Source: a virus. From it: a stretch of DNA of 21,226 nt. The stretch covers positions 1 through 21,226 of the IMG/VR virus record IMGVR_UViG_3300025646_000454. One strand, written 5' to 3'. The stretch's first letter is position 1. The number at the start of each line of letters is the position of its first letter. Of this stretch, positions 3,768-18,029 are shown piece by piece. The translations under genes were made by a program, and so were the position numbers. The notes under the pieces are model-generated. The model was not told where the DNA came from. It was given only the letters and a program-made list of their open reading frames with translations, and made no database searches.

Positions 3768-4542
3768 TAGAAAGATGATAAGACTCCTGGACGGAAGCCA
3801 GGAGGAGAAGCTGATACTAGAAGAGCAAGCAATAGATGACGACTTCTACTACGGCTACCTAGGAAAGGCTGCGCTCTCAAGCAGCAGCCTAAAGCAACTA
3901 CTGCAAAGCCCAAAGACATACCACTATATGCAGAAGTATGCCCAACAGGACACCAAGAGCCTCCTGATAGGAAAGCTCTTCCATTGGGCAATACTAGAGC
4001 CACACAAGATGGATGAGGTACAAGTGGTAGATGTGCAGAGCAGAAACGCCAAAGCCTTCAAAGAGGCAAAGGAGGAGCACGGCCAGGTGATCACAAAGAA
4101 GGAAGAAGAAGAGATCCGAAGGCTGCAAGATGCGATGCTCCGAAACGAAAAGGTGCTCTCTTTCCTAAAGGGAGCACAGTTCGAAGTACCCTGCGTCGAT
4201 ATGCTAGGAGGATATGCCTTCAGAGCAAAGGCCGACATCATCCAGGACGGACACATCATCGACCTAAAGACCACAACAGACCTGAACGCATTCAGATACA
4301 GCGCAAGGAAATACGGATACGATGTGCAGTGCTACATCTACTGCAACCTATTCGACATACCCTACACCAACTTCCACTTCGCAGCAATAGACAAAGGAAG
4401 CCTAGACATCGGAGTCTACCACGTGAGCGAGGAGTTCTACCTTGCTGGAAGAGAAAAGGTCCAGCAAGCACTTGAACGATACAAGAGCTTTTTTGTAGAC
4501 AAAAACGATATTGACAGTTATTATATAGAAGACACCTTATAA
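3757..4542 (+). CDS. RecE/exonuclease VIII-like PDDEXK nuclease (261 aa)
   Basis: The motif order fits the exodeoxyribonuclease VIII PDDEXK-like family (PF12684 type): SSSSLKQLLQSPKTYHY (41-57), GKLFHWAILEP with H76, an acidic E143 ahead of AKADII (D160), the catalytic IDLKTTTD (D169-x-K171), and YDVQCYIYC (Q191). Such enzymes resect double-stranded DNA 5' to 3' and usually work with a RecT/Erf/SSB annealing partner in phage recombination. No partner is visible in the window; it might lie outside or be supplied by the host. Length is normal for the isolated nuclease domain. Start at ATG 3757 overlaps the membrane peptide. The stop overlaps the next ATG (TAATGG). Confidence 0.85.
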   Translation: MAYSRKMIRLLDGSQEEKLILEEQAIDDDFYYGYLGKAALSSSSLKQLLQSPKTYHYMQKYAQQDTKSLLIGKLFHWAILEPHKMDEVQVVDVQSRNAKAFKEAKEEHGQVITKKEEEEIRRLQDAMLRNEKVLSFLKGAQFEVPCVDMLGGYAFRAKADIIQDGHIIDLKTTTDLNAFRYSARKYGYDVQCYIYCNLFDIPYTNFHFAAIDKGSLDIGVYHVSEEFYLAGREKVQQALERYKSFFVDKNDIDSYYIEDTL

Positions 4543-5807
4543 TGGAAAGAGTAAAGATCGGTGCCGTAAGGCCAAACCCAAACAACCCAAGAACAATCAA
4601 AGGGCATAAGTTCGAGAAGCTCGTGAAGAGCATCAAGGACTTCCCGGAGATGCTCGACCTACGCCCAATCGTCGTCAATGACGATATGATCGTGCTAGGA
4701 GGAAATATGAGATTGAGAGCCTGCCAGGAAGCAGGCCTCAAAGAGGTGCCGATCATCAAAGCCAGCAACCTAACCGAGGAGCAGGAAAAAGAATTCATCA
4801 TCAAGGATAACAGCTCCTTCGGAGAATGGGATTGGGATGCGCTAGCAAACGAATGGAACACAGAAGAGCTACTCGATTGGGGAATGGACTTCCCCGAGGA
4901 TTGGGCACAGCTCGACGAAGAAGAAGCAAAAGACGATCACTACGAGCCAACAGAACAGACGGAGCTATATGTAAAGCAAGGAGACCTCATCACCTTCCAC
5001 AAAGCAGATGAGGAGCTCCACCGTCTGATCTGCGACGACAGCACGTCCCACGACGTGGTGGAAAGGCTAACAGGAGACAAATACTACGACCTGGTAGTAA
5101 CCGATCCACCCTACAACGTAGACTACGAAGGAAGCAACGGACTCAAGATCCAAAACGATAAAATGGGTGACGAGGACTTCCTAAACTTCCTCCAGGGATT
5201 CTACGATGCGAATGCACTCAAGACAAAGAAAGGAGGAGGATGGTATGTCTTCCACGCCGACAGCGCAAGCAATGCCTTCCGACTAGGCTGGCAAAGAAGC
5301 GGACTGCTCCTCAAGCAGTGCCTAATATGGGTAAAGAACAGCATCGTCCTAGGAAGACAAGACTACCAATGGAAACACGAGCCTATCCTATACGGCTGGA
5401 AAGAGGGAGCATCACACTACTTCATAAACGACAGAACAAACCCAACGGTAATAGAAGAAGAGGTAGACTTCAGCAAGATGAAGAAGGAGGAGCTCGTAAA
5501 GCTCCTCGAAGAAGTAAACAAGGAACAAAGCACGATCATACACCACGACAAACCATCAAAGAATGACGTGCACCCAACAATGAAACCTATCCCTCTAGTA
5601 GGGGACCTGATAAAGAACAGCTCACGAAGAGGTGAGATCGTCGGAGATCCCTTCTCCGGATCAGGAAGCACAATGGTAGCCTGTCACCAACTTGGAAGAA
5701 AATGCTACGGCATCGAACTCGATCCCAAGTACTGCCAGGTCATCATCGAAAGAATGCAGCAACTAGACGAACACATAACAATTAAAATAAACGGAGAGCA
5801 ACTATAA
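4542..5807 (+). CDS. ParB-like domain fused to DNA adenine methyltransferase (421 aa)
   Basis: Residues about 4-90 form a ParB/sulfiredoxin-like domain (NPNNPRTI, then VLGGNMRLRACQEAG at 51-65). An acidic linker follows. Residues 150-405 form a beta-class N6/N4 methyltransferase: DPPY at 188-191 (catalytic motif IV), HPTMKP at 344-349, then the SAM-binding DPFSGSGST at 369-377 and YGIELDPKYC. The order IV before I defines the beta class, and DPPY favours adenine as target. The fusion is common in phages and would modify phage DNA against restriction or mark it for replication or packaging. Insertion 305-340 (charged, helical) is probably part of target recognition. It ends the DNA-metabolism block just before the hairpin island and terminase. 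Confidence 0.9.
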   Translation: MERVKIGAVRPNPNNPRTIKGHKFEKLVKSIKDFPEMLDLRPIVVNDDMIVLGGNMRLRACQEAGLKEVPIIKASNLTEEQEKEFIIKDNSSFGEWDWDALANEWNTEELLDWGMDFPEDWAQLDEEEAKDDHYEPTEQTELYVKQGDLITFHKADEELHRLICDDSTSHDVVERLTGDKYYDLVVTDPPYNVDYEGSNGLKIQNDKMGDEDFLNFLQGFYDANALKTKKGGGWYVFHADSASNAFRLGWQRSGLLLKQCLIWVKNSIVLGRQDYQWKHEPILYGWKEGASHYFINDRTNPTVIEEEVDFSKMKKEELVKLLEEVNKEQSTIIHHDKPSKNDVHPTMKPIPLVGDLIKNSSRRGEIVGDPFSGSGSTMVACHQLGRKCYGIELDPKYCQVIIERMQQLDEHITIKINGEQL

Positions 5808-5911: not shown

Positions 5912-6262
5912 ATGGCAGCGAACAAAACTTTACAGAATAAAAAGCAACTCATTGATGCAATGGAGCAAAGCCTAGGTGTAGTTACCCAGGCCTGTAAGAT
6001 GGTAGGCATATCAAGAGTCACCTACTACGACTATTACAATAACGATCCTGAATTCAAAGCAGCGATAGACGAGCTACAAAACGTAGCTCTAGACTTTGCC
6101 GAGAGCCAACTCCACAAGCAAATAAGAGAGGGCAGCACAGGAGCAACAATCTTCTATCTAAAAACCAAAGGAAAGAACCGAGGATACATAGAGCGCCAGG
6201 AGATACAACACGATACCGACACAGGCTTCAACATCAAGATCGTAGATGCAACTAGAGACTAA
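5912..6262 (+). CDS. terS: Terminase small subunit (DNA-packaging initiation protein)
   Basis: The 116-residue protein has an N-terminal helix-turn-helix (LGVVTQACKMVGISRVTYYD, residues about 21-40), then a helical oligomerisation segment (DFAESQLHKQIREGSTGATI) and FYLKTKGKNRGYIERQEI. This is the usual ending of phBC6A51-like small terminases. The family forms a ring that binds the packaging site and hands DNA to the large subunit. It overlaps the large-subunit gene by 17 nt, which settles the assignment. The DNA it recognises may be the hairpin island directly upstream. Confidence 0.85.
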   Translation: MAANKTLQNKKQLIDAMEQSLGVVTQACKMVGISRVTYYDYYNNDPEFKAAIDELQNVALDFAESQLHKQIREGSTGATIFYLKTKGKNRGYIERQEIQHDTDTGFNIKIVDATRD

Positions 6263-7403
6263 TGTTGTATTCAGACACCTACTCCAAGCCGACAAGAAGA
6301 TCATCATCGAGCAAGGAGGTACCCGTTCAGGAAAGACCTACAACATCCTGATATGGATAATATACTACTGCCTATCCGAAGCTAAAGGAAAGACCATCAC
6401 CATATGCCGGAAGACATTCCCGGCAGTACGATCGTCAGTGATGAGAGACTTCTTCGAGATCCTCGAGAAGGTCGGGCAATACAATCCAGCAAACCACAAC
6501 AAGAGCTCACACGAATATATGCTTGGCGGCAATATGGTGGAGTTCATATCCCTGGACCAACCACAGAAGGTGAGAGGTCGCAAGAGGGACCTCCTCTACA
6601 TCAATGAGGCCAATGAGCTGCACTACGAAGACTGGCAGCAGCTGATCCTCCGGACCACAGGCCGAGTGATCATTGACTACAACCCAAGTGATGAATACCA
6701 CTGGATCTACGACAAGGTCATACCAAGAAACGACGCACAGTTCCATAAGACCACCTACCTAGACAATCCCTTCCTGCCACAGACGATCATCGACGAGATC
6801 GAACGCCTAAAGGAAACAGACGAGCAATACTGGCAGGTCTACGGACTAGGAGAGAGAGGAGCGTCCAAAGCGCTCATCTTCCAATACCACGAAACAGACA
6901 AGATACCCGATGGTGCTAGATCAGTAGCAATGGGAATGGACTTCGGGTTCACGAATGATCCGACAACCCTCGTCGCAGCATACGAATACAACGGAGATCT
7001 ATACTTTGACGAGAAGATCTACCAAACAGGAATGACCAACAGAGACATCCACAAAACGCTCCAGGGATTAAACCTGGACCGAAGAGCGGAGATCTTTGCA
7101 GATAGCGCCGAGCCAAAGAGCATCAAGGAGCTGCAACTATTCGGCTGGAACATCAAAGCCACAGCAAAAGGACCGGACAGCATAATGGCCGGTATCGATA
7201 TGCTCAAGCGACACAAGCTCTACATCACCAAGGGAAGCGTCAACCTGATCAAGGAAATGAGAAACTACAAGTGGATAGAAGACACCAACGGAAAGATTCT
7301 AAACAAACCGATGGACCAATACAATCACGCCATCGACGCAATGCGCTACGCTACATACAACAGAATGGCTAGACCGAACTACGGTAGATACGCAGTAAGA
7401 TAA
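6246..7403 (+). CDS. terL: Terminase large subunit (packaging ATPase/nuclease)
   Basis: Both catalytic halves are intact in 385 residues. The ATPase shows Walker A GGTRSGKT (24-31), Walker B LLYINEANE (116-124, with E121 catalytic) and the coupling motif IDYNPS (143-148). The RNase H-like nuclease shows GMDFGFTNDPT (D232), IFADSAEP (D286) and NHAIDAMRYA (D364), the three metal-binding aspartates. The layout is that of the PBSX/Terminase_3 group, slightly short for the family. It drives ATP-dependent DNA translocation into the prohead and cuts the concatemer. No other Met gives a complete ATPase, so the start is secure. Confidence 0.95.
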   Translation: MQLETNVVFRHLLQADKKIIIEQGGTRSGKTYNILIWIIYYCLSEAKGKTITICRKTFPAVRSSVMRDFFEILEKVGQYNPANHNKSSHEYMLGGNMVEFISLDQPQKVRGRKRDLLYINEANELHYEDWQQLILRTTGRVIIDYNPSDEYHWIYDKVIPRNDAQFHKTTYLDNPFLPQTIIDEIERLKETDEQYWQVYGLGERGASKALIFQYHETDKIPDGARSVAMGMDFGFTNDPTTLVAAYEYNGDLYFDEKIYQTGMTNRDIHKTLQGLNLDRRAEIFADSAEPKSIKELQLFGWNIKATAKGPDSIMAGIDMLKRHKLYITKGSVNLIKEMRNYKWIEDTNGKILNKPMDQYNHAIDAMRYATYNRMARPNYGRYAVR

Positions 7404-7421: not shown

Positions 7422-7436
7422 AGTTATTTATATATG
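7422..7436 (+). promoter_or_regulatory. Start-codon element AGTTATTTATATATG, copy 1
   Basis: This 15-nt sequence, which includes the ATG at 7434, is repeated exactly at 15033-15047 and 18049-18063. Copies 1 and 3 share 18 bases (CAGTTATTTATATATGCA). It may be a translation-initiation element or a promoter for a leaderless message. Confidence 0.6.
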
Positions 7437-8096
7437 CAGGTTGAAATCATCATACCGGAAGGTCTCCACGAGATAACCCTAGGGCAATACCAAAGATTCG
7501 TCTCGCTCAAAAGCGATGACGAGATGTTCCTAGCACAGAAGGCAATAGAGATCTTCTGCAACGTGCCGTTGATCATTATCAACAATATGCCCTACAAGGA
7601 AGTGACCAGGATCAGCAGCCGCATATTCGGATACTTCGATAGCAAGCACGCCCTAAAGAAAAGCGTCACCATAGGAGGAAAGGAGTTCGGATTCATACCG
7701 AACCTCGAGGACATCACCTTCGGAGAGTACGTCGACCTGGACACCACGATACCGGATTGGGAAACGATGCACAATGCAATGGCGATCCTCTACCGGCCCG
7801 TGATAAGCCGGGCCAAACAACTCTACAAGATAGAAGACTACGAGAGCAGCCATAAGTACAGCGAGACAATGAAGGAAGCACCTATGACAATGGTCTTCGG
7901 TGCCCTGGTTTTTTTTTGGAGTTTAGGAACGGAATTATCGATAGCTATGATGGAGTCTTTGGAGGAGGAGATGAATACAGCGTCCAAGCAAACTTCGCAC
8001 GAAAGTGGGGATGGTATAGCAGCTTCTATGCACTCGCTAAAGGAGACGTTACAAAGTTTGAAGACGTTGCTAGGATCAGCCTCCATACAGCTATGA
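7434..8096 (+). CDS. Tail assembly chaperone-like protein, zero-frame product (220 aa)
   Basis: The start is fixed by the repeated start-codon element. The protein begins with a domain typical of Bacteroidetes phage proteins of this position (ITLGQYQRF near residue 14; FIPNLEDITFGEYVDLDT near 87-104; ILYRPV near 118), then a hydrophobic VFGALVFFWSLGTEL (154-168). The nine Ts encoding residues 160-162 are a slippery site. The zero-frame tail contains SGDGIAASMHSLKETLQ (191-207), which also looks conserved from memory. Gene position after terminase and ahead of the tail genes, plus the -1 overlap, resembles the lambda G/GT chaperones that load the tape measure. The chaperone role is inference from architecture. 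Confidence 0.65.
   Translation: MQVEIIIPEGLHEITLGQYQRFVSLKSDDEMFLAQKAIEIFCNVPLIIINNMPYKEVTRISSRIFGYFDSKHALKKSVTIGGKEFGFIPNLEDITFGEYVDLDTTIPDWETMHNAMAILYRPVISRAKQLYKIEDYESSHKYSETMKEAPMTMVFGALVFFWSLGTELSIAMMESLEEEMNTASKQTSHESGDGIAASMHSLKETLQSLKTLLGSASIQL
7909..7917 (+). other. U9 slippery sequence for -1 programmed ribosomal frameshifting
   Basis: Zero-frame codons are GTT TTT TTT TGG; the heptamer T-TTT-TTT at 7910-7916 is an ideal -1 slip site. After slipping, the ribosome continues TTG GAG TTT AGG and reads a frame open to 8158. I see no convincing stimulatory hairpin just downstream. Confidence 0.7.
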
Positions 8097-8158
8097 TGTA
8101 CCTAGAGTTTGAGAAAGAGAAGATAGAAACAGAACAAAGAATGCTAAAGAAGCAATGA
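7916..8158 (+). CDS. Chaperone -1 frame extension (80 aa, made as a 241-aa fusion)
   Basis: This -1 frame has no ATG in its first 55 codons; only a TTG at 7916, which lies at the slip site. The product contains FARKWGWYSSFYALAKGDVT and FEDVARISLHTAMMYLEFEKEK, a helical domain I recall as recurrent in Bacteroidetes phages. Its stop overlaps the next gene as ATGA, the usual junction in this genome, so this frame is probably the one translated into the coupling point. Slippage gives residues 1-161 of the upstream frame plus these 80. Independent initiation at TTG is a weaker alternative. For 178 nt both frames appear to be coding. Confidence 0.65.
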   Translation: MEFRNGIIDSYDGVFGGGDEYSVQANFARKWGWYSSFYALAKGDVTKFEDVARISLHTAMMYLEFEKEKIETEQRMLKKQ

Positions 8159-8622
8159 CAGGATACTACGACTTACTAGAGAAACTAAAGACAAGCCTAG
8201 AGGCCAACCCAAGCATCACTACGGTGACGACAGGAGACCTCCTCGAGGTAGACCTGGCGAAGCAAACGATCTTCCCACTAGCCCACATCATAGTGCAGAA
8301 CGTAACCTTCTCCGATCACGTGATGACGTTTAACGTCAGTATCTTATTTGCTGATATAGTGGACTTCAACAAGTCCAACCCAAGGGACGGAGAGATCTTC
8401 AGAGGAAACAATAACGAGCAGGACGTGCACAACGCAATGCTCCAGGTGGCCAACAAGCTATGGACAGATATGAGCAGAGGCACAATCTTCTCGGATCAAT
8501 ACCAGGTAGACGGCACGCCTACAGCCGAGCCGTTTGTTGAGCGCTTCGATAACGAGCTAGCAGGATGGGATATGACACTAAACATAAGCATACCGAATAA
8601 AGACATCAGTGCCTGCGTTTGA
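8155..8622 (+). CDS. Conserved tail-region protein, possible tail terminator (155 aa)
   Basis: An alpha/beta protein starting with a helix (YYDLLEKLKTSLEANPSI), followed by strands with VDLAKQTIFPLAHIIVQN (32-49), FNVSILFADIVD, a loop RGNNNEQDVHNAML, and a strand-rich end LAGWDMTLNISIPN. This layout (N-terminal helix, beta sheet, ending in a strand that describes a tail monomer) resembles tail terminator/completion proteins of the lambda gpU type, and the gene lies where such a protein is expected. From memory it is widely conserved in Bacteroidetes phages but usually unnamed. ATG 8155 overlaps the chaperone extension's stop. Confidence 0.6.
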   Translation: MTGYYDLLEKLKTSLEANPSITTVTTGDLLEVDLAKQTIFPLAHIIVQNVTFSDHVMTFNVSILFADIVDFNKSNPRDGEIFRGNNNEQDVHNAMLQVANKLWTDMSRGTIFSDQYQVDGTPTAEPFVERFDNELAGWDMTLNISIPNKDISACV

Positions 8623-9136: not shown

Positions 9137-10386
9137 TGCCCATTGTATCACCACAAAGTTTAGTAGGAGCAAGAAGCCCTATATACATTACGGCTAACTA
9201 TTCCTCTCTAGCCGCATCGCTTACCGATGTGACATTTGATATTTTTATTTGGACAGGAGCAAGAAACTCACGTCCTGCTTCAGCACAGTACACGCTGTTC
9301 CGTGACGTGTTCGCAGGAAACGATGTATCCTTCGACATTGCGCCAATGGTCAGAGAATACCTATCAAACAGCTACGAAGGATTCGATGCTACGGATGTGA
9401 GCTACGCTCCGGACGGCAGCGTAGTATGGGTGCAGATAGACTACGAGGTCAACTACATAAACAAGGCCACACCACCACAGACCATAAACGATACAGGAAG
9501 CAGCGACATCTTTGAATCAAGCAACGGATACCACATCTTTATTGAAGCAGCAAACAAAGAAGTGAATAAAGGATTCGCTAGTGTCAATGCTCAAAAATAC
9601 ATCAAGAATAACGGCAATGAAACAGTGCCGGTATATCTAGGTAAATGGGGAGAGGGCTACGACATCTACTGGGCATACAAGGATAGAGTGATTGCTGATG
9701 GAGGAACGGTAGAAGGCACTACCCTATGTGCTAACATCGGTCTCGAATACGTTGAGATCCTAGGAGACGGAGGATACAACATCGATATAAGAATGACAGA
9801 GAGCCAGCTCCAAAACCTTCAAGCAGAAGGAAGAGTGTTGCTACTGCCTTGTGGTGTAAGTAATCTAGGCACCTGGGTAGAAAGCGTCAGTGAGGTATTA
9901 ACCTACACCAATTACTACGAAATCAACCTGAAGGATAAAGACGGAACTACACTAGACACACGTAGGTTCTATCCTACTTGTGAAGCGAAGTACACACCAA
10001 GCGTGATGCAGTTCATCAACAAAAATGGACTATGGGAAAGCGTCACATTCTTCAAGCGCAGCGAGGAAACAATAGACGCATCAGGAGAGCAATACAGAAA
10101 GTCAATAGGATCATCATCAGCCCTGGGATTCAGCTACTCAACTACCAACCCATTGTACCAACGCTACAATGTGAACGGAAGAAAAAGATTCACACTCAAT
10201 ACCGGATGGGTAGGTGAAGACTACAAACAGATCGTAGAACAAATGCTAATCAGTGAGCGAGTGATGCTCGATGGATTGCCGGTGAACGTATCAACACAAA
10301 ACATCACGCTGCAAAAAAGCGTGAATGACAAAAACATCAATTATACCGTTGAGGTAGAAGAAGCATTCGACATACGCTATGTATAA
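9136..10386 (+). CDS. Large tail/baseplate structural protein (416 aa)
   Basis: Beta-rich protein with IYITANYSSLAAS near residue 16, a beta domain with FDIAPMVREYLSNSYEG (66-82), and a C-terminal third containing RRFYPTCEAKYTPSVMQFIN (278-297), RYNVNGRKRFTLNTGWVGED and SVNDKNINYTVEVEEAFD. I recall this whole arrangement from Bacteroidetes phages, always paired with the next gene. It has no enzymatic motif. Being upstream of the tape measure in the tail block, it is probably a baseplate or tail-tip component. TAATG junction upstream, 8-nt overlap downstream. Confidence 0.65.
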   Translation: MPIVSPQSLVGARSPIYITANYSSLAASLTDVTFDIFIWTGARNSRPASAQYTLFRDVFAGNDVSFDIAPMVREYLSNSYEGFDATDVSYAPDGSVVWVQIDYEVNYINKATPPQTINDTGSSDIFESSNGYHIFIEAANKEVNKGFASVNAQKYIKNNGNETVPVYLGKWGEGYDIYWAYKDRVIADGGTVEGTTLCANIGLEYVEILGDGGYNIDIRMTESQLQNLQAEGRVLLLPCGVSNLGTWVESVSEVLTYTNYYEINLKDKDGTTLDTRRFYPTCEAKYTPSVMQFINKNGLWESVTFFKRSEETIDASGEQYRKSIGSSSALGFSYSTTNPLYQRYNVNGRKRFTLNTGWVGEDYKQIVEQMLISERVMLDGLPVNVSTQNITLQKSVNDKNINYTVEVEEAFDIRYV

Positions 10387-12379
10387 AGTAGGGCTATATA
10401 TCGACGGACAGAGAGCCGACCTATTCCAAGACGAGGGAATAGAGATGAACCTGACGGTGCAGAACATCAAAGACCTCGGAAAGGTCTTCGGTGACTTCAG
10501 CAATGGATTCACGATCCCAGCGTCTCCAGTCAACAATACGATCTTCAAGCACTACTACAACGTTGACGTCTCCGGAGGCTTTGCTGCCGCACAGCGAGTG
10601 ACGGCATTCATCGAGGTAAACAACAATGTCTTCAGACAGGGAGTCCTAGAGCTCGAGCAGGTACAGATGAAGAAAGGAGAACCGTACGCCTACAGCGTAT
10701 CGTTCTACAGCAAGACAACAAGCCTAAAGGACCTCATAGGAGAGGACCAGCTCAATGACCTGGACCTATCAGCCCAGGACCACACCTATAACGACACCAA
10801 CATCGAGACAGGGATCAATGCCTACGTCAGTGGAACAGACAATGCTGTGATCTACCCAATGATCACTCCGGTAACGAGATGGTACTACGACAGTCAAGGA
10901 TCACACGGTGACGGAAACATCCACTACCACAATGATCCGGACCACGGTGTAATGTACTACGACCTTAAACCAGCAGTCAAGATCAAGAAGATCATAGACG
11001 CTATAGAGGCAAAGTACGGAATCACCTTCAACAGCAACTTCTTCGACAGCACTGACTTCGGCAAACTATTTATGTGGTGCCACCGTCGAGCAGGGTATAT
11101 GTTCAAGGACCAGCCCAATGGGAAGGAAGCAGACGTGATCATCTTCACGTCGGGAACAACAGGAGACTACAACCTAACTACGCAAGAGTACACAGTACAG
11201 ACAGCGCAGGAGTCCGAGATACGCATAGCCTACAGCATCACATCATCAGACAGCTATAAGATTCAGATATTCATCAATGATGAGCTAGCAAGTAGCCGGT
11301 CACATACCGGCAACGGATCAGCAACTATCTACCTAGGCACCCTAAACATAGGAGACAGAGTACAGCTACGCTTTGCCGTCCCTGATGAATGGGACGGATC
11401 AACAGTGTCGATAGGATTAGTAAGTGCCGATGTAGAATACTTCTACTTGAGCAGCTGGAACCTTGGAGACTCCGTATCGAAGATCGGCCAGGCCATTACT
11501 ACCCAGGTAGTAATATCGGACCAACTACCCGAGCAGAAAGTAGTAGACTTCCTATCAAGCCTAATAAAGCAGTGGAACTTGGTGATCGTCCCAACGTCAC
11601 CAACGCAATATACAGTAGAGCCACTAGACGATTGGTACGCTGCTGGAACAACACACGAGATCACTCAATACGTAGACACGGAAGAGGTGACCATTAAAAA
11701 GCCCGAGCTATATCGAAGAATCTCATTCAGCTATAACGAAACGGAAGCAATCCTCGGAGAGACATACAGGCTTCAAAACGACATCGGCTATGGTGACCTA
11801 CGGGCCGACTTCACATTCGATGCAGACGAATTTAATATTGAAGTGGGCTTCGACAATATGCTCTTCGAAAGGCTAACGGATATTTATACAAACGGAGTAG
11901 GCCTAACCGAAATCAACGTTGGCCAATGCGTGACTAGAGAGGAAGAACCGTACATAGGTAAACCAATTATATTCTATGCAGCAGGCAACCTGCGTATAGC
12001 ATTAGCAAATCACTGGAGCTACACCAATATGAGCGGCAATGCTATTCAAAAGCAAGATATGTGGCTCATAGGAAACGTAAACAGCTCCACAGCAGAATCA
12101 GTGACGCAAACGCTAAACTTCGGAACCGAAGTAGATCCATACTTGCTCCAGGGCTTTACACAGAGCCTATACCAAAATTATTGGAGAGACTACATCACGG
12201 ACCTGTACAATTCAAGCAGGAGAGTATTCAGCTACAAAGCACAGCTACCGTTAGGCGTGATGTTAAACCTCAAGAATAACGACAAGCTAACGATCCTAGA
12301 ACGTAACTACATCATCAATAACGTGAAGCTGAACCTGACCACAGGTGAAGCAACACTAGAGCTATTAAACGAAGTGTAA
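10379..12379 (+). CDS. Large tail-tip/baseplate structural protein (666 aa)
   Basis: It opens with VGLYIDGQRADLFQDEGIEM and IKDLGKVFGDFSNGFTIPAS (30-49), a segment that I recall as diagnostic of a conserved family in Flavobacteria phages: a subunit-contact domain followed by FRQGVLELEQVQMKKGE and YSVSFYSKTTSLKDLIGED (108-126). The middle (about 250-350) looks like a beta-sandwich insertion rich in Ser/Thr/Gly (IAYSITSSDSYKIQIFIND). The C-terminal part (about 380-660) resembles baseplate hub-type domains, with PTSPTQYTVEPLDDW and LTILERNYIINNVKLNLTTG. The role as tail tip or hub is inference from size, beta content and position; no protease or lysozyme motif is seen. Confidence 0.65.
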   Translation: MYKVGLYIDGQRADLFQDEGIEMNLTVQNIKDLGKVFGDFSNGFTIPASPVNNTIFKHYYNVDVSGGFAAAQRVTAFIEVNNNVFRQGVLELEQVQMKKGEPYAYSVSFYSKTTSLKDLIGEDQLNDLDLSAQDHTYNDTNIETGINAYVSGTDNAVIYPMITPVTRWYYDSQGSHGDGNIHYHNDPDHGVMYYDLKPAVKIKKIIDAIEAKYGITFNSNFFDSTDFGKLFMWCHRRAGYMFKDQPNGKEADVIIFTSGTTGDYNLTTQEYTVQTAQESEIRIAYSITSSDSYKIQIFINDELASSRSHTGNGSATIYLGTLNIGDRVQLRFAVPDEWDGSTVSIGLVSADVEYFYLSSWNLGDSVSKIGQAITTQVVISDQLPEQKVVDFLSSLIKQWNLVIVPTSPTQYTVEPLDDWYAAGTTHEITQYVDTEEVTIKKPELYRRISFSYNETEAILGETYRLQNDIGYGDLRADFTFDADEFNIEVGFDNMLFERLTDIYTNGVGLTEINVGQCVTREEEPYIGKPIIFYAAGNLRIALANHWSYTNMSGNAIQKQDMWLIGNVNSSTAESVTQTLNFGTEVDPYLLQGFTQSLYQNYWRDYITDLYNSSRRVFSYKAQLPLGVMLNLKNNDKLTILERNYIINNVKLNLTTGEATLELLNEV

Positions 12380-12516
12380 TGGGATACCTAAAATACATCA
12401 TCAGCGCACTACCCGAGGTAGAAGCAAAGACTGAAAACATAGCGATAGCAAAAGGCAAATACGAAGAGCCAAAGAACTGGAAACAATACTTTAAAAGACT
12501 GAAGAATGGCCATTAA
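12379..12516 (+). CDS. Small basic protein before the tape measure (45 aa)
   Basis: ATG 12379 overlaps the previous stop (TAATG), and TAA 12514-12516 lies 11 nt inside the tape measure gene. The product starts MGYLKYIISALPEVEAKTEN and ends with KNWKQYFKRLKNGH. Junction style and codon use indicate a real gene. No function can be given; its place suggests a tail-assembly accessory. Confidence 0.55.
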   Translation: MGYLKYIISALPEVEAKTENIAIAKGKYEEPKNWKQYFKRLKNGH

Positions 12517-14392
12517 GGAAACGGTACAGATAGACGTAGAATCCAATGCAACGGACCAAACCAATGAATTGGTAGGTGCGATCAATGAGCTCAAGGATGC
12601 TATCAAAGAGATGTCCTCCGGCCTTGAGAAAGGCCTAGGAGACGTCGACAAGGGCCTCAAGGATACAAAAGACAGTGTCGAGGCGGTAGGCGAAACAGCA
12701 GGAAAGAGCGAGAAGGGCGTAAGCAAACTCTCCAAGGCCTTCGGTAATATCGGAAAGGCATCAGGGATCATCTTCCTTGTGGAGAAAGCAATGGAGATCC
12801 TATACGATCTCTTTAATAACAACCAAAGAGTAGTGGACGCCTTCAACACGGCGTTCAACTTCCTGCAAATAGCCTTCAGCGACTTCGTCAAGTTTATCGA
12901 GAGCAACATAGGAGGCATCACAGGATTCTTCAAAGACATCTTTGAAAACCCGGTAGAGAGCATAAAGTCCTTTGGTACGGCAATAGCAGAGAACATACTC
13001 GAGCGCCTGTCAAGTATATTGGATGTTGCCGGTTATGTTGGAAAGGCACTTAAAAGTTTATTCACAGGAGACTTTGCCGGTGCCATAGAGAACGTGAAAG
13101 AAGCAGGTAAAGAAATGGTCGATGTCTTTACCGGAGTAGACAACTCCGCAGAGAAGATAGCAGACGGCACCAAAAAGATAGCAGGAGCCGTAGTAGACTA
13201 TACCAAGAAGACATACCAGGCAGCAGGAGCAATGACCGAGCTCAACAAGCAAGCCGAACTTGCTGATGTCATCAACCAGGGACTCATCGAGAAGTACGAT
13301 CTACAAGCGGAACAACAAAGACAGATCCGTGACGACGAGAGAAACACCATCGAAGAGCGCATCGCAGCTAACAATCGCCTAGGGGAGATCCTAGACGAGC
13401 AAGAGGCAGCAATGCGAGCAAACGCACAAATCCGACTAGCCCAGGCACAACAGAACGCTAAACTTGACGAGAACAACATAGAGTTCCAAAGGGAACTGAT
13501 TGATGCAAGAAACGAAGTAGCTGCAGTAGACGCACAGATCGCAGGATTCAGATCAGAGCAACTATCTAACCAGGAAGCACTCGAGCGTGAACTGCTCGAG
13601 ATCGCACGAGGAAAGAAAGAAGCGGAGATCGAAGCCAATGAGATCAGCAAGCAAGCAGCAATCGATGCAGAGGAAAACACCCTGAAAAGACTCGAGCTGG
13701 AAAAGGAACTAGCAAAGGCCACAAAGGAATCACGAGTAAGCATCATCGAAGACGAGCTGGCCCTAACGAAGGAGGGCACAGCACGCTACCAGGAACTCCT
13801 AGACGAGAAACTACTCCTCGAGACAGAATACGCAGCAGAGAGCAAGCGTATCGACAGGGAGACAGAGCTAACCAAGCGTGAAGAGCGTGAGCAAACCATA
13901 CAGATGGGCTACGACCTTACCAAGCAAGGCCTCGAAGCGGCAATGGCGCTATCGGAAGCCTTCGCTGGGGAAAGCGAAGCACAGCAGCGTAGAGCATTCA
14001 ACGTACAGAAAGCACTATCAGCAGCCAACACCGTGATCAGCACAATCGAAGGTGCACAAAATGCATACACCACAGCACAGAAGAGTCCTATCACAGCAGC
14101 CTTCCCTGCCTACCCGGCTATCCAGGCCGGGCTTGCAACAGCATTTGGTATAGCGAAGCTCAAGCAGATTCAAAACCAGCAGTTCAATGCGAGCAGCGTG
14201 CCGTCGACAACGTCGGCACCGGCAACAGTTGGATCAAGAACTCCTCAATTTAATATTGTAGGAACCAGTGGAATTAACCAAATTGCACAAAGCCTAAACC
14301 AGGACCGTCCGGTAAGGGCGTATGTGGTAGGAAGCGACGTATCAACACAACAGCAATTAGATAGAAACAGAGTAAAAACAGCATCATTATGA
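12506..14392 (+). CDS. Tail tape measure protein (628 aa)
   Basis: Very helical protein, rich in Ala/Glu/Lys/Gln. The N-terminal region (1-80) is charged coiled coil; hydrophobic stretches follow at about 87-103 (SGIIFLVEKAMEILYDLF) and 115-200 (FLQIAFSDFVKFIES, IGGITGFF, YVGKALKSLF). A long coiled coil spans about 245-480, and a hydrophobic FPAYPAIQAGLATAFGIAKL lies near 530-555. This is the classic tape-measure composition. At about 1.5 angstrom per residue it predicts a tail of at most about 94 nm, suitable for a siphovirus. The protein sets tail length and is ejected with DNA. The stop overlaps the protease start (ATGA). Confidence 0.85.
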   Translation: MAIKETVQIDVESNATDQTNELVGAINELKDAIKEMSSGLEKGLGDVDKGLKDTKDSVEAVGETAGKSEKGVSKLSKAFGNIGKASGIIFLVEKAMEILYDLFNNNQRVVDAFNTAFNFLQIAFSDFVKFIESNIGGITGFFKDIFENPVESIKSFGTAIAENILERLSSILDVAGYVGKALKSLFTGDFAGAIENVKEAGKEMVDVFTGVDNSAEKIADGTKKIAGAVVDYTKKTYQAAGAMTELNKQAELADVINQGLIEKYDLQAEQQRQIRDDERNTIEERIAANNRLGEILDEQEAAMRANAQIRLAQAQQNAKLDENNIEFQRELIDARNEVAAVDAQIAGFRSEQLSNQEALERELLEIARGKKEAEIEANEISKQAAIDAEENTLKRLELEKELAKATKESRVSIIEDELALTKEGTARYQELLDEKLLLETEYAAESKRIDRETELTKREEREQTIQMGYDLTKQGLEAAMALSEAFAGESEAQQRRAFNVQKALSAANTVISTIEGAQNAYTTAQKSPITAAFPAYPAIQAGLATAFGIAKLKQIQNQQFNASSVPSTTSAPATVGSRTPQFNIVGTSGINQIAQSLNQDRPVRAYVVGSDVSTQQQLDRNRVKTASL

Positions 14393-15047: not shown

Positions 15048-15617
15048 AAAGCGACAGAGACTCTAAACAAAATCGCAAATCTGCTTAACGTAGATTTGTC
15101 AGCCCAGGAAGAAGTGAAGCTCGAGCAAATGCGTCTCGAGAACGGAACAGTAATCGAAGCAGAATCCTTTGAAGCAGGAGAAGCAGTATTCATTGTAACG
15201 GAAGACGAGCGTGTAGCCTTACCAATCGGCGACTACGAGCTAGAGAACGGAATGACGTTGATCGTAGCGGAAGAAGGAGTAATTGGTGAGATCCGTGAAG
15301 GTGAAGTAGAGGAAGCTCCAGCAGCCGAAGAGCCTGCTGAAGAAGTAGAAGCTGCAGAAGAAGAGATGGCCTACGCTACCAAAGAGGAGTTAGGTGCAGC
15401 TATCGATGAGCTCAAAGGAATGATCGAAGAGATCAAAGGAATGATGGCTCCGAAAGAAGAGGAGATGGCGAAAGAGGAATTGTCTGCAAAACAACCTGCA
15501 GCAAAGCCAATCAAAGCTAACCCGGAAGCAAAGCAGCCTACAAGTATGAAGGCCTTCGCTCACGCAGCGAAGTCTACTACCCTGGACCGAGTGCTTTCTA
15601 AAATCGCACAACGATAA
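15045..15617 (+). CDS. Capsid scaffold-like protein (190 aa)
   Basis: Start fixed by the repeated start-codon element. An N-terminal helix (ETLNKIANLLNVDLSA) precedes a small beta domain with two LENG-centred repeats (31-34, 66-69; GDYELENGMTLIV). An extremely acidic Glu/Ala/Pro stretch (84-108) follows, then a short coiled coil (KEELGAAIDELKGMIEEIKGMM, 113-134) and a basic, Lys/Ala-rich C-terminus (145-190). Acidic coiled-coil proteins between protease and major capsid genes are typically scaffolds. The basic C-terminus could be the capsid-binding part. I am confident of the context but less so of the exact role. Confidence 0.65.
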   Translation: MKATETLNKIANLLNVDLSAQEEVKLEQMRLENGTVIEAESFEAGEAVFIVTEDERVALPIGDYELENGMTLIVAEEGVIGEIREGEVEEAPAAEEPAEEVEAAEEEMAYATKEELGAAIDELKGMIEEIKGMMAPKEEEMAKEELSAKQPAAKPIKANPEAKQPTSMKAFAHAAKSTTLDRVLSKIAQR

Positions 15618-16003
15618 TGAAGCAGGTAGAGAAGATCTGGTCAGAGATGGCCTCAAAGAAAGCAGAGCTTTCCAAAGAGAAGGTGGAGCTGTCAGTTATC
15701 GGTGATCTTAACAAACTTGCTCAAGAAGCAAAAGACCTGCAAGGTGATATCGAGCGTTCAGAGCAAGATATGAAAGACCTTATTGATTCTATGTCAAACA
15801 TCGGAATGCAAGCAGGAGAAGAACTAGACTATGCTGAAAAGCTAGATGACGATCTTGAAAATGCAATCAGAACAGCGCTAAACGCTGCTGAAGCATTGGG
15901 TATTGGCAAAGTTCCTGAAATTGACGACGCAGTAGAAAGAAGAGCAAATCTGCGTAAGGCATACAATGACGCCTACGCACAGTGGAAAAAACTAGACTTT
16001 TAA
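15617..16003 (+). CDS. Helical head-region protein, tandem paralog 1 (128 aa)
   Basis: All-helical and acidic, with the N-terminal signature IWSEMASKKAELSKEKVELS (7-26), heptad-like middle segments (QEAKDLQGDIERSEQDMKDL) and a C-terminal LGIGKVPEIDDAVERRANLRK. The next gene encodes a protein of identical length with matching landmarks (LWSEMA, AKEIGVDVPELDEARKA), so the two arose by duplication. From memory, single members sit before the capsid gene in other Bacteroidetes phages, without assigned function. Scaffold, decoration or head-assembly chaperone roles are possible. TAATG junction with the scaffold gene. Confidence 0.65.
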   Translation: MKQVEKIWSEMASKKAELSKEKVELSVIGDLNKLAQEAKDLQGDIERSEQDMKDLIDSMSNIGMQAGEELDYAEKLDDDLENAIRTALNAAEALGIGKVPEIDDAVERRANLRKAYNDAYAQWKKLDF

Positions 16004-16390
16004 ATGAAAGCGCTATACAACCTTTGGTCTGAAATGGCCAAACCGAAACAAGAGCTAGCTTCCCAGGAAGTGAAGCTGTCTGCAGTAGAAGAACTAGAGC
16101 GCAGCACTGATGTGTTTCTTGACGAAGCAAGAGAGCTAGAAGGTTATATTTTGGATTTCGATCAACATATGGACCGTGCACTCGGAACATACAGAATGAT
16201 GCTAGGACTCTACGAATCGCTAGATTCTGAATTAGGTGATTTTGATCAACAGATTGACAAGGTAGCTGCAGCAGCAAAAGAGATTGGAGTAGACGTCCCT
16301 GAACTAGACGAAGCTCGTAAAGCTATGAGATCAGCTGAAGAAGCATATGCGGATGCAGAGGAGCGCATCCGCAAATACAATTTACTATAA
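16004..16390 (+). CDS. Helical head-region protein, tandem paralog 2 (128 aa)
   Basis: Starts immediately after the stop of its paralog with no gap. Shared features: the N-terminal LWSEMAKPKQELASQEVKLS, similarly spaced Leu/Asp heptads, and AAAAKEIGVDVPELDEARKA (about 91-110) opposite GIGKVPEIDDA in the first copy. Identity is low outside these blocks, so the duplication is old or diverged quickly. A long Met/Tyr-containing segment (TYRMMLGLYESLDSELGDF) differs from paralog 1, which suggests that the copies now have different partners. Function unknown. Confidence 0.65.
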   Translation: MKALYNLWSEMAKPKQELASQEVKLSAVEELERSTDVFLDEARELEGYILDFDQHMDRALGTYRMMLGLYESLDSELGDFDQQIDKVAAAAKEIGVDVPELDEARKAMRSAEEAYADAEERIRKYNLL

Positions 16391-17422: not shown

Positions 17423-17974
17423 ATGGCGTGCGATTTAACACAAGGCCGTAAGGCACCCTGTAAAGACGTAGTAGGTGGAATCACTGCTGTCTACTTTGCT
17501 GACTACGGTGACGCTGGAACAGCGACACTAGGCACAGACGGTGAGATCACAGACTTCTCTGCAGACTTCACGGTATACAAGTATGAGCTAAAAGGAAACA
17601 GCTCATTCGAACAATCAATCAACTCTAGCCGCGAGAACGGAACAACCTTCTTCGAGCAGACGTTGAACCTAACCTTGCCTAAATTAAGCAAGGAGGACCA
17701 CAATGAGATCAAGCTACTTGCTTACGGTCGTCCACAGATCTTCGTACAAGACTACAATGACAATTTGTTCGCAGTAGGTCTAGAGCACGGAGCAGAGGTA
17801 ACCGGAGGAACAATTGTGACAGGAGCGGCAATGGGTGACCTATCAGGATACACATTGACATTCACTGCCCAGGAGGTACTACCTGCTAACTTTGTGAACG
17901 GAGCAACAGCAGCAGATCCATTCGGTGGATTGTCTACATCTACAGTTAATGTAACTGAAGGAACGAACTCTTAA
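17423..17974 (+). CDS. Tail tube-like major structural protein (183 aa)
   Basis: Beta-rich, beginning ACDLTQGRKAPCKDVVGGIT with two cysteines (C3, C13), then AVYFADYGDAG, FTVYKYELKGNSSFEQSINS, a strand-rich LNLTLPKLSKEDHNEIKLLA and VTGGTIVTGAAMGDLSGYTLTFTAQE. Size, beta content, abundant-gene codon use and a dedicated terminator fit a tail tube (major tail) protein. From memory, the opening block recurs in Bacteroidetes phages as a virion protein. A role as a capsid decoration protein is the main alternative, since it lies directly after the capsid gene. The leader shares AATTTAA...AACGAATA with that of the capsid gene. Confidence 0.65.
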   Translation: MACDLTQGRKAPCKDVVGGITAVYFADYGDAGTATLGTDGEITDFSADFTVYKYELKGNSSFEQSINSSRENGTTFFEQTLNLTLPKLSKEDHNEIKLLAYGRPQIFVQDYNDNLFAVGLEHGAEVTGGTIVTGAAMGDLSGYTLTFTAQEVLPANFVNGATAADPFGGLSTSTVNVTEGTNS

Positions 17975-17999
17975 TCAGCCCAAGAGTAAGTAAACACAG

Positions 18000-18029
18000 G
18001 GGACGGCATAACAGCCGTCCCTTTTTTTT
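18000..18029 (+). terminator. Intrinsic terminator after the tail-tube-like gene
   Basis: GGGACGGC (18000-18007), loop ATAACA, GCCGTCCC (18014-18021): a perfect 8-bp GC-rich stem followed by eight T residues. With the terminator at 17361 it brackets the tail-tube-like gene. Confidence 0.92.

Follow-up and report, generated by a model that had tools for sequence, protein, structure and literature searches.

The window analysed here is the whole 21,226-nucleotide stretch of IMG/VR virus record IMGVR_UViG_3300025646_000454, and the locus of interest within it lies directly behind terL (Table 1). A T9 run falls inside a zero-frame ORF that reads through the tract and ends in its own stop. The −1 frame is open from a stop at 7853 through 8158, and a −1 slip on the heptamer would join the 161 residues of the common N domain to a further 80, giving by conceptual translation a fusion of 241 amino acids. 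At the sequence level there are two isoforms with one common start, one short and one frameshift-extended, and the stop of the extended form overlaps the start of the next gene as ATGA. Recomputed from the sequence, the original prediction was correct in the T9 run, the ends of both frames, the 220- and 241-amino acid products, and the ATGA overlap; its statement that the −1 frame lacks a usable ATG also holds, none being present in the window ahead of the conserved core.

Table 1. Features of the cassette and the neighboring genes named in the text, with positions in the window.
Feature	Position	Strand	Product	Remarks
terL	6246-7403	+		Directly upstream of the cassette
Zero-frame ORF	7434-8096	+	220 aa	Putative gpG-like short isoform; matches phrog_32199 (E 1.7e-18), function unknown
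Common N domain	7434-7916	+	161 aa	
T9 slip site (putative)	7909-7917	+		Zero frame GTT TTT TTT TGG; heptamer T_TTT_TTT at 7910-7916
−1 frame extension	7916-8158	+	80 aa	Putative gpT-like domain, KWGWY family; TGA at 8156-8158
Zero-frame tail	7917-8093	+	59 aa	
Dual-coded overlap	7917-8093	+		Selection on the zero-frame tail and on the −1 domain, from sequence statistics
ATGA junction	8155-8158			Fusion stop overlaps start of next gene
Next gene	8155-8622	+	155 aa	Starts at the ATGA junction; phrog_30964
Tape measure gene	12506-14392	+		phrog_21537, phrog_1538; 4.35 kb downstream of the cassette

The tract is the sole T9 of the window, in which two T8 runs begin at 2258 and 18022, and a T9 arose in 2 of 300 Markov simulations of the window. 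It runs against the codon bias, since phenylalanine is preferentially encoded by TTC (197 codons, versus 64 for TTT) and GTT is rare among the valine codons (30/359). With the two halves folded separately as unchanged translations, AlphaFold2 returned a pLDDT of 81 for the 220-amino acid form, in which a long predicted helix (residues 151-186) passes through the slip point, and a pLDDT of 79 for the −1 domain, predicted to be a small helical domain.

Scanning viral contigs yielded 67 loci, and profile scans gave at least 580 and at least 592 matches, of which 80 of each were used; after the removal of near-copies, at least 138 loci had both domains. Comparison of the T-run and both frames in related phages had been named beforehand as a check, and both are conserved in 138/138 of the deduplicated loci among the matches listed: each has a run of eight or more T at the homologous place (T9 in 126, T10 in 11, and T8 in one), and in each the two domains lie −1 apart whatever the run length. 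The runs begin in differing codon phases among the loci listed, with the −1 relation kept. Relatives without the T-run but with an ATG-started second gene were sought, and there were none among the 138 deduplicated loci listed. The only cultured close members found are the Nonlabens phages P12024L and P12024S, and one Flavobacterium metagenome-assembled genome also carries the cassette, so the hosts are very likely Bacteroidota.

The original prediction also held that both frames are coding over the overlap, and this is borne out statistically. Among the loci listed, the zero frame stays open for 25-84 codons beyond the slip, most commonly 62, and the dual-coded overlap is usually about 50-80 codons long. 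When the −1 protein was held fixed and its synonymous codons were redrawn in 28 representatives, the zero frame was expected to close far earlier than observed (combined P for the observed openness 5e-18; the sequences in all the dual-coding tests are related, and their P values are therefore guides, not exact), while the same resampling gave no such signal for the third frame of these representatives. In 36 representatives with less than 55% identity, the stop fraction of the zero frame over the first 20 overlap columns was 0 versus 0.049 expected, a depletion absent from the control frames of the same column test. Residue agreement in the zero frame of the overlap was 1.65 times that expected in the same 36; controls behind the zero-frame stop and in the upstream gene gave 1.03-1.06, but the third frame inside the overlap gave 1.24, and general constraint therefore explains a part of the excess. 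For the −1 frame, synonymous identity rose from 1.03 upstream of the overlap to 1.42 within it and stood at 1.23 behind it, and third-position change of this frame is lower in the overlap, for instance 0.176 in the window's own group versus 0.343 for the upstream zero frame. On these statistics of stop absence, resampling, and synonymous and third-position constraint, selection acts on both frames of the overlap.

Between the T-run and the KWGWY core, no ATG occurs in the −1 frame of 66 of the 67 divergent representatives (ATG alone being counted, not GTG or TTG), and directly after the tract the −1 frame is conserved as L.F[RK]. The exception is only P12024L, which has a −1 ATG ahead of the core and in which the T9 is still present. 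Phage records searched directly with the −1 domain gave no match. Starting from the short form, a fold search pointed to Flavobacterium phage 6H, through which single-ORF proteins 259-301 amino acids long were reached; these belong to phrog_25418 and are found in Duneviridae (Flavobacterium phage 23T, laban6-1, and Cellulophaga phage Ingeline) and in Leef, a Microcystis phage. In hhalign, the profile of the conceptual fusion aligned with these single-ORF relatives end to end across the junction (229 columns, E 1.5e-13), with E values of 6e-11 for the N part and 1.8e-4 for the C part, compared to 0.08-0.7 for column-shuffled controls; several predicted viral structures of 226-267 amino acids also have matches to both halves. 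The end-to-end alignment indicates that the fusion is also made naturally in one frame, and the earlier proposal that the two halves form one fusion thus corresponds to a real protein architecture. The phrog_25418 proteins are homologous to the 241-amino acid conceptual fusion over its whole length, but they are encoded by a continuous ORF for which the slip site is not needed. They may be produced as the long form alone, in which case a ratio of short to long forms would not be needed everywhere. Phage 6H was considered as a second frameshift case and rejected, because its relatives have one 293-amino acid ORF; the annotated 191-amino acid protein of 6H (10352-10927) is a shortened form of this ORF in near-identical phages, and either a sequencing error or a mutation in the 6H record probably accounts for the split.

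The cassette had been placed beside terL and far from the tape measure gene, as is the case in the window and in its lineage. Among the loci listed that have at least 1 kb of upstream sequence, terL lies upstream of the cassette in 120 of 127, the 155-amino acid next gene is found downstream in 128 of the relatives listed, and tape measure matches were obtained in 19 of the 22 long records searched. The gene order kept in the lineage is terL, the cassette, genes for proteins of 155, 175, 416, and 666 amino acids, and the tape measure gene. Four genes separate the cassette from the tape measure gene, instead of the usual, though not obligatory, position just upstream of it. The cassette heads a co-directional run of genes ending in the tape measure gene, and capsid and tube-like genes lie beyond. 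In Ingeline, about 1 kb lies between the end of the single ORF and the annotated tape measure gene downstream of it; the genes that follow the single-ORF relative have no homology to the 155- and 175-amino acid genes of the window.

The locus is best read as a lambda G/GT-like cassette belonging to a lineage of Bacteroidota siphophages of which Nonlabens phage P12024L is a member. With a probability of roughly 0.8, it is a programmed-frameshift gene for two proteins with a common N domain, most likely working like lambda gpG/gpGT, a tail-chaperone mechanism that has been reviewed (PMC5009743). Reading in the zero frame would give the 220-amino acid product and a −1 shift at T9 the fusion with the KWGWY domain, the fusion presumably arising in a fixed and low proportion. 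The tape measure protein would then be chaperoned during tail assembly by numerous short molecules and a few long ones, and the −1 domain would recruit the tail tube subunit. The position of the Ingeline ORF before a tape measure gene and the short/long architecture point to a tail assembly chaperone, a role that is quite probable by analogy with gpG/gpGT. Because direct similarity to named chaperones is weak, namely BFVD A0A8S5V8Z8 in a fold search (E 0.03, rank 39) and phrog_29715 (E 0.09), we infer the role; a profile search of the PDB gave nothing useful and a fold search of the PDB gave no match. The original prediction of a lambda G/GT-like cassette therefore stands for the frameshift architecture (the tract, the −1 relation, and the fusion relatives), while in assigning a chaperone role and a ribosomal slip it went beyond the evidence.

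If the frameshift is real, the protein could serve elsewhere than in tail chaperoning, for instance as a factor for packaging or for head-tail joining. The conserved position adjacent to terL and the absence of a significant match to a solved chaperone in the PDB sequence and fold searches would fit such a factor, but the G/GT architecture, the single-ORF relative that precedes the tape measure gene in Ingeline, and the place of the cassette at the head of genes ending with a tape measure gene make it unlikely. A further reading has two overlapping genes, with the −1 domain started separately by internal initiation or re-initiation. In P12024L, the −1 ATG overlaps the zero-frame stop and two genes are annotated; however, the T-run is retained even there, conservation of the −1 frame extends as far as the run, both halves are joined in the single-ORF relatives, and an ATG before the core is missing from all other representatives (GTG and TTG uncounted), so that separate initiation has very little probability. 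The lowest is given to one ordinary in-frame gene with a mis-sequenced or mis-assembled T-run, which is scarcely credible: T9 runs are error-prone and single-ORF relatives exist, but selection acts on the zero-frame tail, the arrangement is the same in independent assemblies and in an isolate, and the −1 relation is found across T8, T9, and T10 and across different codon phases among the loci listed. Assembly or homopolymer error was ruled out because that relation holds whatever the run length and codon phase. As far as sequence comparison can tell, the frameshift arrangement is due neither to chance nor to assembly error.

Like lambda G/GT, and the HK97- and P2-type systems, the cassette has a short zero-frame product, a longer −1 fusion, a heptamer-type slip site, and, as in lambda, a C-terminal domain accessible by the shift alone. 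The slip site of lambda is GGGAAAG, whereas that proposed here is a T9 homopolymer; the zero frame continues 59 codons past the slip under selection, whereas the slip in lambda is near the end of G; and the cassette lies behind terL, well before the tape measure gene, and no named chaperone matches it significantly in sequence. The Nonlabens phages P12024L and P12024S (Inhavirus) have a homologous T9 cassette after terL (CDS 40/41 and 38/39), annotated as two separate hypothetical proteins; there, the zero frame differs in stopping 25 codons past the slip and the −1 frame in having an ATG. The frameshift trick is a known one; that its homopolymer slip site, long dual-coded overlap, and unusual genome position are new here is well supported, and no published report of such a cassette in the Bacteroidota lineage was found in the open-access literature. 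The lineage is abundant; in its isolate the annotation shows two hypothetical genes with no relation to each other, and the PHROG families carry no assigned function. A function for these two protein families is suggested by the cassette, and the unusually long overlap provides a handle on the role of the second C-terminal tail.

Tandem ribosomal slippage on U_UUU_UUU and slippage by RNA polymerase are considered almost equally likely, the ribosome being very slightly favored because every characterised tail-chaperone frameshift is, to our knowledge, ribosomal. The heptamer is compatible with tandem slippage of the ribosome; in E. coli, slipping has been reported for a set of heptamers that includes U_UUU_UUU and U_UUU_UUC, and U_UU.C is there no less slippery than U_UU.U (PMC4066793). 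In the alternative, which falls somewhat short of an even chance, RNA polymerase would add one U in the T9 and ribosomes would read the edited mRNA unshifted, giving the same 241-amino acid fusion. The precedent is Shigella mxiE, in which a T9 in the overlap of two ORFs gains one U by transcriptional slippage to give a longer product (PMC1088944, PMC6260861); mxiE differs in being a bacterial, non-phage regulator, and slippage in the phage cassette is a candidate mechanism. Polymerase slippage is a serious rival because the second phenylalanine codon is never TTC (0/56 representatives versus 13.9 expected, P about 10^-7.7), although TTC there is synonymous in both frames in 126 of the loci listed and U_UU.C slips at least as well on E. 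coli ribosomes (PMC4066793). It is also in keeping with a run of at least nine T in 137 of the 138 deduplicated loci listed, where a heptamer requires seven, with the lack of an RNA stimulator in the 67 representatives, and with a stop in the third frame no more than three codons on in 134/135 loci listed, which would end the products of other indels. However, in the tail-chaperone frameshifts characterised so far it is the ribosome that slips (PMC5009743), hydrophobic or aromatic residues can account for T at run positions 1 and 9 and dual coding for the third-frame stops, and the cited slip preferences are those of the E. coli ribosome and may not be those of Bacteroidota.

Stimulatory RNA structure, which is common but not obligatory, was sought upstream and downstream of the tract, and none was found beyond shuffled expectation (mean z 0.0, 67 representatives). 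The window has a terminator-like hairpin, GCACC...GGTGC, just before the T9 (7870-7908, z −2.0), which did not recur in the family test of 67 representatives and which could raise polymerase slippage or termination in the window's clade. Tentatively, and with somewhat less than an even chance, the whole Bacteroidota tailed-phage lineage may set its chaperone isoform ratio by polymerase slippage at the T9, with both C-terminal tails selected. A slip at either level would lead to an identical protein product, and the cassette offers a clean natural system for comparing ribosome and RNA polymerase slip, with the single-ORF cousins as natural controls.

Several observations were made elsewhere in the gene neighborhood. 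On the upstream side, positions 4542-5807 encode a 421-amino acid protein that by eye resembles a fusion of a ParB-like domain with a DNA methyltransferase (motif DPPY). Tandem paralogues at 15617-16003 and 16004-16390 (31% identity over 112 amino acids, E 2e-10) are flanked by a scaffold-like gene on one side and the major capsid gene on the other. Behind the tube-like gene there is a strong intrinsic-terminator-like hairpin of 10 pairs at 17998-18023, followed by a T-run (T8 from 18022). The 183-amino acid tube-like protein of the window (17423-17974) is matched by both 2149-2643 and 5962-6390 of P12024L (JQ823123.1), which possibly has a duplicated tail tube gene.
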